Part shown: piece after piece, positions 397 through 2,437 of the stretch | Numbering within the stretch: the stretch's first letter is position 1 | Layout: each line of letters starts with the position of its first letter | Notes under the pieces: model-generated | Told to the model about the DNA's origin: nothing | Database searches by the model: none | The model's input: the letters and a program-made list of their open reading frames with translations, nothing else | Assembly (NCBI GenBank): GCA_947623845.1 | Contig: CANQHM010000053.1 | Span: 1-7,234 of the forward strand | Direction: 5' to 3' | From: an uncultured Bacilli bacterium | GTDB taxonomy: Bacteria; Bacillota_I; Bacilli_A; RF39; UBA660 | DNA length: 7,234 bases | Program-made: the position numbers and the translations under genes

Positions 397-423
397 GTTA
401 ACGTGCGTTAACTTATTTTATTT
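386..423. terminator. Bidirectional intrinsic terminator shared by convergent genes
   Basis: Perfect inverted repeat with 18-bp arms (386-403 and 406-423) around a two-base centre (TG). A core of GTTAACG/CGTTAAC is flanked by A-rich and T-rich ends, so each direction gives a stem followed by T residues. It contains the stop codons of both the Hsp20 gene (394-396) and the leftward regulator gene (413-415). With arms meeting at the centre, the real RNA loop must open a few base pairs. Confidence 0.85.
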
Positions 424-664
424 TGACATATTTACTAGTAATATTAGATTTAGGATATGCTTGTCTTATATCAGTTCTTGATAATAAATAATCTATAGAA
501 GTATTATAAAAATTTGCTAAAGTATTTAATTTATCAATAGGTATAAGATTAATACCTTGTTCGTATCTAGAATATTGAGCTTGGGTAACTTTAAGAAGTT
601 TAGCAATTGATACTTGGCTATAATCTCGATCTTCTCTAATTTCTTTTAATCTATTTATATTCAT
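413..664 (-). CDS. XRE/Cro-C1-type helix-turn-helix transcriptional regulator
   Basis: Small cytoplasmic DNA-binding protein of 83 aa, consisting almost entirely of an HTH_3 (Cro/C1) domain at about residues 5-62. The recognisable core is SQVSIAKLLKVTQAQYSRYE at 16-35, with the usual YSRYEQG turn, followed by DKLNTLANFYNTSIDYLL. A short basic tail ends in KYVKIK. There is no sensor or catalytic domain. The frame stays open to a GTG at 673, but the ATG at 664 is preferred: TAGTGAT sits just upstream of it as a weak Shine-Dalgarno, and nothing resembling one precedes the GTG. The gene is divergent from the surface-protein gene at 818 and convergent with hsp20. Inverted repeats overlap its own promoter, which suggests autoregulation and possibly control of the divergent gene; that is inference. 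Single-domain regulators like this occur in both host and prophage contexts, and nothing here shows phage origin. Confidence 0.88.
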   Translation of the reverse strand: MNINRLKEIREDRDYSQVSIAKLLKVTQAQYSRYEQGINLIPIDKLNTLANFYNTSIDYLLSRTDIRQAYPKSNITSKYVKIK

Positions 665-690
665 AAAAATCACTATCTAAATTATATATT

Positions 691-709
691 CGTTAGCTTA
701 TAGATAACG
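691..709. promoter_or_regulatory. Imperfect inverted repeat, candidate operator 1
   Basis: CGTTA and TAACG form the outer arms (691-695, 705-709), with two further inner pairs (C697-G703, T698-A702), so the site reads CGTTAnCTnnnAGnTAACG. It covers the predicted -10 of the leftward regulator gene. This size and symmetry suit a dimeric XRE-type repressor, but binding is inferred only from position. Confidence 0.45.
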
Positions 710-725
710 TCCATTTATACGTAAA
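697..725 (-). promoter_or_regulatory. Predicted sigma-A promoter of the XRE regulator gene
   Basis: Read on the minus strand, TTTACG (720-725) is separated by 17 bases from TATAAG (697-702), matching 4/6 and 5/6 of the housekeeping consensus. Transcription would start near 690, leaving a leader of about 25 bases before the ATG at 664. One candidate operator overlaps each hexamer. Confidence 0.5.
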
Positions 726-732
726 ACGTATA
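716..732. promoter_or_regulatory. Perfect 6-bp inverted repeat, candidate operator 2
   Basis: TATACG (716-721) and CGTATA (727-732) flank a TAAAA spacer. The repeat overlaps the -35 hexamer of the regulator gene and ends 30 bases before the TTGACG of the divergent promoter. Its arms resemble operator 1 only in containing a CG-centred motif, so the two need not bind the same protein. Confidence 0.4.
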
Positions 733-761
733 TAATTGTTAAAAAAATTTAGACTTATGTA

Positions 762-792
762 TTGACGGGGGGGGGGTATAATTTGCTATGAT
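762..792 (+). promoter_or_regulatory. Predicted phase-variable promoter of the surface-protein gene
   Basis: TTGACG (762-767) is a near-consensus -35 whose last base opens a G tract (767-776). A perfect TATAAT lies directly after the tract (777-782), only 9 bases from the -35. A second, extended -10, TGCTATGAT (784-792), lies further on, with 19 bases between TTGACG and TATGAT. Sigma-A prefers about 17 bases. Changing the G count would move either -10 into or out of register: 8 G would give 17 to the second box, and 18 G would give 17 to the first. No good -35 lies 16-18 bases upstream of TATAAT. Confidence 0.7.
767..776 (+). repeat. Homopolymeric G tract (10 G)
   Basis: Ten consecutive G residues in otherwise strongly AT-rich DNA, placed exactly between the -35 and -10 elements of the downstream gene. 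It is the longest G or C run I see in the window. Long G/C homopolymers are prone to slipped-strand mispairing and are the usual switch in contingency loci. The exact count may also be affected by sequencing or assembly error. Confidence 0.93.
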
Positions 793-817
793 TATTATGA
801 AAGTAAGGTAATCATAT

Positions 818-2437
818 ATGAGAGTATTTAATCCTGAAAAAGAACTAAGTAAAATAAGAAATGGTAATAAGAATAAAATCATAGTAGGTTTATGTACCTT
901 GTTATTAATTGTAATAGTAGGGTATTCCTTTGCGCTATACCAAGTACGCCACACTCAAAAATTAGTCTTTAATACAGTAGGTGAATTTAAGAAAAGAGAT
1001 ATTATTTTATCAGTTTTAGTAGATGGAGAAAATAAAACAGAGTTTCCTGGTAAAGATGATGGTTATGTGTTTGAAAGATTAGATTGTGATAAAGAGGGAA
1101 CAAGTGCTACTTTCGATAAAGTAACATGGGAACTAGTTTTAAGAACTGATAAACCTAATAAGTGTACTGTTGTTTTTGGAACTAAACCAAATGAACCAGA
1201 ATTATTTCAAGGCTTAATTCCAATTACTATAGATGATGATGGAACAATAAAAGTCGCTGATATTGATGCTGACTGGTATGATTATGGAGAACATAAATGG
1301 GCGAATGCTGTGTTAGTAACAACTGCAAAATATAATGAATTAACCCAAGATAATCAATTAAGAAAAGATAAAGCAGGAACGATTCTTAATTTAGATATTG
1401 ATATACTTCAAATGTATGTGTGGATACCAAGATATAAATATCAATTATTTAATGTTAATAATGAAGCTGTACCGGAACAAATGATAAATATTCAATTTGA
1501 AAAAGAAACAAAAAATACAGGAGATATAACATGTATATATAACAATTTAAATAATGGAGTAATTGAAGAAAAATGCATTGATAAAGAAAGCAAACTTGCA
1601 GAAAATGGAGATTGGTATACGCATCCTGCTTTCACCTTTGGTGAAACGGATTTAAAAGGTTTATGGGTAGGAAAATTTGTAAATAGTGGGAATAGTAACA
1701 CACTAAAGATATTACCCAATGTTGTACCTGTAAAATTGGCACATTATTCGTCATTTACAGCAATAAGGAATATTGAACTAGAAACAGCTGAAAATTATAA
1801 TCTAGATGCACAAAAAATTGATACTCATATGTTAAAAAATATAGATTGGGGAGCGATTGCTTATTTAACACAGTCTAAATATGGAAGATTTAATGGTGAT
1901 GGTAATTCAATAATTTATGGAGCTGAAGTATATGTGAATAATACAACTAATACAGGTTGTGCTGCTGAGGAAAAATATTTGACTGCTGTTATTGAATGTA
2001 CGGAACAAAATCGTTGGAATCAAAATGGAGTAAAGTCGTCAACTACCGGAAATATGTATGGTATATACGATATGGTAGGGTTAGATGAAGCTGTTATGGG
2101 ATTTGGAACAACTGAAAATGGTTCGTTTTGTTCAGATAAATGTAATTTTTCTGGTGTTAATCCGGATTTAAAATATTACGATATATATACATTTGAAAAC
2201 AGAAATGGAAATTTATCTCGTGGCCATTTAGGAGATGCAACTAGGGAAGTTTTAAATACAAATAGTAGGTTATGGTATGATGGGTATCGAGATTTACCAT
2301 ATGCAACCAGTTATTTAGTAAGAAGAGGGGGCGCTGTATCATTTGGTACTGGAGCATCACTTTTTACAATAAGTTTTACAAATAGTTGGGTATTTTCTTC
2401 ACGGACTGTAATAACTGCTCAAGATGGAGTGCATTAA
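818..2437 (+). CDS. Membrane-anchored surface protein with FGE/C-type-lectin-like C-terminal region
   Basis: Predicted exported protein of 539 aa; no specific function is recognised. A basic N-terminus precedes one membrane segment (about 21-40, IIVGLCTLLLIVIVGYSFAL) followed by YQ, acting as an uncleaved anchor or signal. A small beta-rich domain follows (about 45-121, DIILSVLVDG, with C90 and C116). The C-terminal region (about 195-535) carries MYVWIPRYKYQ at 199-209, GLWVGKF at 281-287, HMLKNIDWGAIAYLTQSKYG at 337-356, YGIYDMVG at 414-421 and RRGGAVSFGTGASLF at 502-516. This order (D-W-GA-AYL, then YDM.G, then RGG....G..A.LF) resembles FGE-sulfatase/C-type-lectin-fold proteins of gut Firmicutes as I recall them. 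Further Cys pairs (239/253, 381/394, 438/442) suggest extracellular disulfides. The ATG at 818 has TAAGGT eight bases upstream. The promoter contains a G tract, so expression is probably phase-variable. A role in adhesion or as a surface antigen is inference. The pattern of C-terminal variation, as in targets of diversity-generating retroelements, cannot be judged from one allele. Confidence 0.75.
   Translation: MRVFNPEKELSKIRNGNKNKIIVGLCTLLLIVIVGYSFALYQVRHTQKLVFNTVGEFKKRDIILSVLVDGENKTEFPGKDDGYVFERLDCDKEGTSATFDKVTWELVLRTDKPNKCTVVFGTKPNEPELFQGLIPITIDDDGTIKVADIDADWYDYGEHKWANAVLVTTAKYNELTQDNQLRKDKAGTILNLDIDILQMYVWIPRYKYQLFNVNNEAVPEQMINIQFEKETKNTGDITCIYNNLNNGVIEEKCIDKESKLAENGDWYTHPAFTFGETDLKGLWVGKFVNSGNSNTLKILPNVVPVKLAHYSSFTAIRNIELETAENYNLDAQKIDTHMLKNIDWGAIAYLTQSKYGRFNGDGNSIIYGAEVYVNNTTNTGCAAEEKYLTAVIECTEQNRWNQNGVKSSTTGNMYGIYDMVGLDEAVMGFGTTENGSFCSDKCNFSGVNPDLKYYDIYTFENRNGNLSRGHLGDATREVLNTNSRLWYDGYRDLPYATSYLVRRGGAVSFGTGASLFTISFTNSWVFSSRTVITAQDGVH

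Follow-up and report, generated by a model that had tools for sequence, protein, structure and literature searches.

A G tract in a putative promoter spacer as a candidate switch for surface-protein expression in an uncultured gut lineage of Bacilli

The window analysed here, a 7,234-bp stretch of AT-rich bacterial DNA, holds genes for HSP20, an XRE-type regulator (minus strand), a surface protein (818-2437), ObgE, LexA and transketolase, and a run of ten Gs lies just upstream of the surface-protein gene. The question raised by the locus is what such a tract does there. Our preferred answer, to which we give a probability of roughly 80%, is that the tract serves as the variable spacer in a sigma-70-type promoter that drives one gene of a large surface-protein family, and that its length switches expression. 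Slipped-strand mispairing would add or remove Gs, and each gain or loss would shift the distance between the -35 and -10 boxes around the 17-nt norm, raising or lowering its expression cell by cell. A genome with many cassettes, as found in relatives, would let cells display differing subsets of surface proteins, and in three relatives DGRs may also rewrite the C-terminal tips of family members.

The tract and its promoter elements

A search with ObgE gave 20 loci in relatives, 15 at 64-71% identity and 5 more distant, the 15 nearer ones coming from MAGs titled uncultured Tenericutes, Bacilli or Erysipelotrichaceae; the ObgE of G063, a genome of the nearest genus, is 73% identical. Genome-wide use of the cassette was assessed in relatives' genomes, and two of these, G195 and G255, belong to one genus in the taxonomy used. 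The features of the window that bear on the question are the following.

413..673, minus strand: gene for an XRE-type HTH regulator, divergent to the surface-protein gene (HTH_3, E 4.2e-13)
708..736, plus strand: likely remnant of a repressor-type promoter, with palindrome TATACGTAAAACGTATA (716-732), TATAAT (731-736) and CGTCCA at the -35 position (708-713)
762..767, plus strand: -35 hexamer TTGACG, whose final G is the first G of the tract; the same TTGAC-tract layout occurs in G195 and G255
767..776, plus strand: G10 tract, read in the sequence, the proposed variable spacer; homologous cassettes have 9-12 G
777..782, plus strand: TATAAT named in the earlier note on this DNA, probably a chance spelling inside the spacer
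784..792, plus strand: putative extended -10, TGC (784-786) followed by TATGAT (787-792), 19 nt after the -35
805..809, plus strand: probable ribosome-binding site AAGGT; G195 has ATAAGGTAGG at the same place
818..2437, plus strand: surface-protein gene (539 aa), with a hydrophobic stretch near residues 20-40 and a predicted FGE-type C-type-lectin domain at 130-534

The ten-G run reported earlier is present at 767-776 and is far beyond chance, judged both by dinucleotide shuffles and by relatives' DNA. Shuffled versions of the window held a mean of 0.27 G7 matches, and a 10-G run's four overlapping matches were not attained in any of the 200. Around ObgE in 15 relatives (260,098 bp, chosen solely by closeness to that gene), G runs of length 3, 4, 5, 6 and 7 numbered 1006, 238, 43, 4 and 1, respectively, and no run longer than 7 was found. 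Across the genomes of the same 15 relatives, 123 runs of at least 8 G occur in nine, and G9 is absent from six.

The earlier note had placed the tract between TTGACG and a perfect TATAAT. All three elements are there, and the location of the tract in a promoter spacer is borne out, provided that the -10 is taken as TATGAT at 787-792; position 792, at which the earlier finding ended, is in fact the end of this likelier box. A 9-nt spacer is too short for a sigma-70-type polymerase, and since TTGACG and TATAAT lie only 9 nt apart they are unlikely to be a working pair at the current tract length. The window cassette reads TTGAC-G10-TATAATTTGC-TATGAT. Its counterparts are TTGAC-Gn-TGTCATTTGA-TATGAT in G255 (n = 9, 9, 10 and 11, with one further copy in which 12 Gs are followed by two bases fewer) and TTGAC-Gn-TGTAAAATGA-TAAGAT or close variants in G195. 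At the position of the window's TATAAT, G255 has TGTCAT and G195 mostly TGTAAA or TATAAA, which makes the window spelling probably fortuitous. The extended box is kept at its place in these cassettes, as TGA-TATGAT in G255 and TGA-TAAGAT in G195, and the working -10 is therefore most likely TATGAT at 787-792 with its extended TGC, giving a spacer of 19 nt. One caveat is that TAAGAT of G195 matches the consensus at four of six positions and that a TAAAAT sits closer to the tract. Because 19 nt is two above the 17-nt norm, the assembled G10 copy probably represents a weak or OFF state. A generic promoter scan of the window returned no site at the tract; that scan accepts spacers of 16-18 nt alone. 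Two marks of porA-type contingency loci are present in the window: a homopolymer between -35 and -10, and a spacer close enough to 17 nt for a change of one or two bases to cross the optimum.

An alternative source of transcription is the upstream promoter with TATAAT at 731-736, which would be controlled by the HTH protein and would leave the tract as a mere part of the leader. The operator-like palindrome and this TATAAT are kept, and relatives with a related HTH gene use such promoters without a tract: relatives of the window HTH adjoin family genes at several loci, with palindromes over the promoter, and the G195 paralogue L251, whose N-terminus is nearly identical, has a repressor-type promoter and no tract. 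However, the -35 position of the upstream promoter reads CGTCCA in the window, where L041 and L026 have TTGACA, and the tract cassette brings a -35, a -10 and a ribosome-binding site of its own, laid out as they are before many genes, so that we regard control from upstream as unlikely. The position of the poly-G promoter, a short way downstream, would suit a replacement of, or an addition to, a repressor-controlled promoter. The arrangement of a divergent XRE gene and a family gene was seen in the window (413-736) and at L041, L026, L251, L276 and L254, and the palindrome sequence varies by locus.

Recurrence, spacing and length of the tract in relatives

The idea that the same cassette might stand ahead of other surface genes holds for relatives, and fails for G063, where no TTGAC-G8 match was found. 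G195 and G255 carry repeated copies of TTGAC-G9 to G12 followed by TGN-TATGAT or TGN-TAAGAT, with 21 matches in one genome of ~1.2 Mb, and cassette, boxes and gene type are common to both. In a family sample of 243 genomes, 82 carry the pattern TTGACN{0,12}G8+, with 539 matches compared with 16 for the reversed pattern; 32 genomes hold at least five matches, and 161, including G063, hold none. It was also found in 142 of 385 genomes of an order sample and in 23 of 159 of a class sample, the three samples overlapping. Comparison of these sequences shows a conserved cassette made up of TTGAC, a G tract and a short segment with a putative extended -10 at its end. The earlier proposal was thus right in kind and understated in scale, with its -10 box in need of correction.

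The position of the best -10 was scored in 83 fetched cases, a set restricted to tracts that have TTGAC within 18 nt and 40 nt of sequence downstream, and that is non-independent because 15 cases come from G195 and five from G255. When distances of 15-21 nt from the -35 were scanned, the best box lay at 18-19 nt in 49 of the 83, and its mean score was 5.52, compared with 3.14 for shuffled DNA and with 3.30 and 3.16 for sequence farther downstream. The score is ad hoc, counting matches to TATAAT with a penalty of 1.5 if A2 or T6 is absent and a bonus of 1 for TG, and is the best of seven positions, with the identical rule in the controls. Ordinary pairs of TTGAC[AT] and TATAAT-like boxes in 1.0 Mb of loci peak at a spacing of 17 nt (23 pairs), the other spacings from 8 to 29 nt having 1-8 each. 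The tract adjoins the -35 in some of the 83 cases and the -10 in others, the latter in the layout TTGACA-(6-9 nt)-Gn. Among 117 tracts fetched by G8 alone, TTGAC stands upstream of 29 G-runs and of no C-run. Similar layouts occur in G007, L178 and L186, and in G009 with CCTTGC replacing TTGAC. Two pattern matches in viral contigs were in unrelated DNA and were taken as chance.

Near-identical cassettes within one genome differ in G count, as in G195, where 16 cassettes among the matches listed comprise twelve of G10 and others of 9, 9, 11 and 12 G. Four promoter-type orthologue groups across species (protein identity 72-90%) keep the -35, tract and -10, with tract lengths of 10/10/11, 9/10, 10/8 and 9/9, so that three of the four differ; the bases separating the -35 from the tract also differ in these groups. 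In two coding-tract orthologue pairs the lengths are equal, 10/10 and 8/8. This spread bears on the possibility that the tract is a fixed spacer element which sets promoter strength or binds a protein, with no switching. Such a role would suit the predominance of a single length, 10 G being the commonest (86 of 180 distinct fetched tracts, a set that, like the 83 spacer cases and the downstream-ORF set, was picked for holding tracts and is thus uninformative on tract frequency). It sits poorly with lengths of 8-12 G among near-identical cassettes and orthologues, and with the hypermutability of poly-G runs of such size in bacteria studied, and we consider it very unlikely. In the available part of PMC6735796, meningococcal repeats are given rates over 1e-5 per division.

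The same lengths weigh on the view that TATAAT at 777-782 is the -10 after all, with a promoter active only once the tract reaches about 17-18 G. That box is a perfect match and adjoins the tract, as the -10 does in the TTGACA-(6-9 nt)-Gn layout. Nevertheless, the spacer is 9 nt, the fetched tracts do not exceed 12 G apart from artefact-like runs in G005, and G255 and most G195 copies lack TATAAT there, yet keep the TGN -10 farther down, which together make this arrangement highly improbable. That the window tract is a sequencing or assembly artefact, as the odd G005 runs and the clustering of tracts at contig ends could suggest, is scarcely credible, given that it is internal, that matching cassettes occur in other genomes and that strand, boxes and spacing preference are not expected of artefacts. 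The G005 runs (L092, L113 and L119) are of 17, 18 and 48 G, and two of the three lie at contig ends. A contig end was found within 100 bp for 37 of the 93 tracts examined, compared with 2.0 expected, an excess of which repeated flanks could be the cause as well as length heterogeneity.

The downstream gene and tracts inside coding regions

The gene downstream of the tract had been read as coding for an anchored exported protein, and the prediction of one N-terminal hydrophobic stretch and a lectin-fold ectodomain agrees with a membrane-anchored product. The protein belongs to a large paralogous family, its N-terminus MRVFNPEKEL being mirrored by MRTFNPEKEL in the G195 genes. It matched no Pfam family, and its NCBIfam match was weak and far below cut-off. 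The best match of the predicted ectodomain is TaqVP, a DGR variable protein, and the CLec scaffold of known DGR variable proteins is predicted for it. Among ORFs of at least 150 aa that follow tracts, 41 of 57 have a hydrophobic N-terminus, compared with 41 of 153 in control DNA. About a quarter of the downstream ORFs are not obviously surface proteins; an ABC ATPase is among the tract-bearing genes, with its tract present in three species.

A second class of tracts lies in the 5' coding region, often after a short MKK...LPT segment. Of the 117 tracts, 36 of promoter type, 32 close to an edge and 13 whose frame was not clear were set aside before frame scoring. This left 36 coding tracts, of which 27 were out of frame, where about two-thirds would be expected by chance, and nine in frame. 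Family genes with 5' coding tracts were seen at L084, L086, L125, L141, L143 and L184. The MKK...LPT segment recalls a sortase-type motif, but at the wrong end of the protein. By eye, further tracts lie within short-chain dehydrogenase-like (L101 and L175), CDP-alcohol transferase-like (L120 and L145) and acyltransferase-like (L158) genes, those of the first two kinds being kept between species.

Known switches and the DGRs of relatives

Switching through the spacer has been described for individual genes, chiefly those of pathogens. The vlp genes of Mycoplasma hyorhinis, the parallel drawn in the earlier note, have a homopolymer spacer ahead of a surface-protein family, as proposed here, with poly-A in place of poly-G and in another lineage. 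In Neisseria meningitidis an unstable homopolymer between the -10 and -35 of porA, fetA and opc alters spacing and surface-protein expression, according to the accessible portion of PMC2791445, and porA repeat numbers and expression states are reported in that of PMC6735796. The window is alike in having a homopolymer in the spacer ahead of a gene for a protein predicted to be at the surface. The meningococcal examples are single genes of a cultured pathogen with measured switching, whereas the cassette in the window lineage stands before many paralogues of uncultured gut bacteria and its switching is proposed from sequence; no homology of promoter or protein is implied. At nadA, one promoter is subject both to the repressor NadR and to a repeat tract (PMC2791445, same portion), and the window likewise has an HTH gene and an operator-like palindrome adjoining the tract. 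The nadA repeat, however, is upstream of the promoter and the window tract inside the spacer, and any action of the HTH protein on the window promoter is conjectural. In the uncultured mollicute Candidatus Mycoplasma girerdii, repeat-length variants, including those of BspA-like surface proteins, were counted in metagenomic reads; these are mostly dinucleotide repeats with effects read as frameshifts, and the word 'promoter' does not occur in the text of PMC5476646 as far as it was available. No report of poly-G or phase variation in RF39, gut Tenericutes or MAGs, or together with DGRs, appeared among the matches listed, which were mainly from non-subscription literature. The poly-G spacer appears to be a standard promoter type in an uncultured gut lineage with genomes of ~1 Mb, placed before many paralogous surface genes, and bears on how reduced-genome gut symbionts cope with phages, host immunity and partner choice.

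RVT_1 was found in seven of nine relatives' genomes tried, and three loci are DGR-like.

L317 (G010:C25): RT, Avd-like protein and small MutS_I protein
L337 (G255:C63): RT, Avd-like protein and small MutS_I protein
L338 (G063:C18): RT, Avd-like protein and small MutS_I protein

The RTs of all three genomes score above the RVT_1 cut-off. Avd passes its cut-off in G010 with both NCBIfam and Pfam and in G063 with Pfam, and falls below it in G255, and an NCBIfam scan of the G010 and G255 RTs gave no match to the DGR-specific RT model. The text of PMC7517822 contains no occurrence of a MutS-like or Avd accessory. Repeats adjoining the RTs match the 3' ends of surface-protein family genes, with mismatches concentrated at template adenines: 218 of 426 A compared with 234 of 1372 other bases in G010 (14 non-independent targets, p 1e-41, the count leaving aside another copy of the repeat within the RT locus, L336 298-436), 98 of 172 compared with 70 of 381 in G255 (six non-independent targets, p 4e-19) and 35 of 65 compared with 31 of 186 in G063 (two non-independent targets, p 2e-8). 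The bias is diluted by distant targets, which in G010 and G255 mismatch also at other bases, chiefly C; the adenine share in the two closest G010 targets is 12/14 and 20/22. Two of the six targets of the G255 template (L303 and L306) belong to G195, and the G255 targets have the family N-terminus and a different C-terminal type. Family genes in G010, G063 and G255 thus look like DGR targets. The RT of G195 (L318, G195:C6) is accompanied by Avd-like, holin-like and lysin-like proteins (by eye) and a WLRSP-type target; it looks like a prophage DGR with another target and was left out of the family's DGRs.

We lean, by a little, towards a repertoire with two layers, in which G tracts in promoters or 5' coding regions would randomly switch many surface proteins, a large share of them with lectin-type tips, and a DGR would rewrite the binding tips of proteins within that family. 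Slippage would then pick the receptors displayed and retrohoming would alter what they bind, joining two diversification mechanisms on one gene. Both layers, each from the gene's own genome, come together in two genes. G255:C50 combines a G10 promoter with a variable region on the minus strand of L292 (2833-2928), in an ORF that extends as far as the sequence fetched. G010:C3 combines a G10 tract in the coding region with a variable region that lies last in the downstream frame. G195:C47 would be a third, provided that the template of G255 can represent that of G195. A poly-G switch on a DGR target gene is not mentioned in the DGR literature among the matches listed, as far as the available portions of those texts go.

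The variable regions of the relatives' CLec-type genes are at the C-terminus, and that of TaqVP is at the very C-terminus (PMC6328139, part of the text). The predicted fold of the window protein resembles the CLec-fold DGR variable proteins TaqVP, Mtd and TvpA, as described in the portions available, TaqVP being the closest. Unlike these, the window gene had no template repeat among those compared: its 3' end gave weak gapped alignments only with the G010 and G063 template repeats and no match with that of G255. Following the surface-protein gene, the segment 2438-2550 contains two inverted repeats (one of them GCTCCTAGCGGAGC), perhaps terminators or a DGR-type hairpin.
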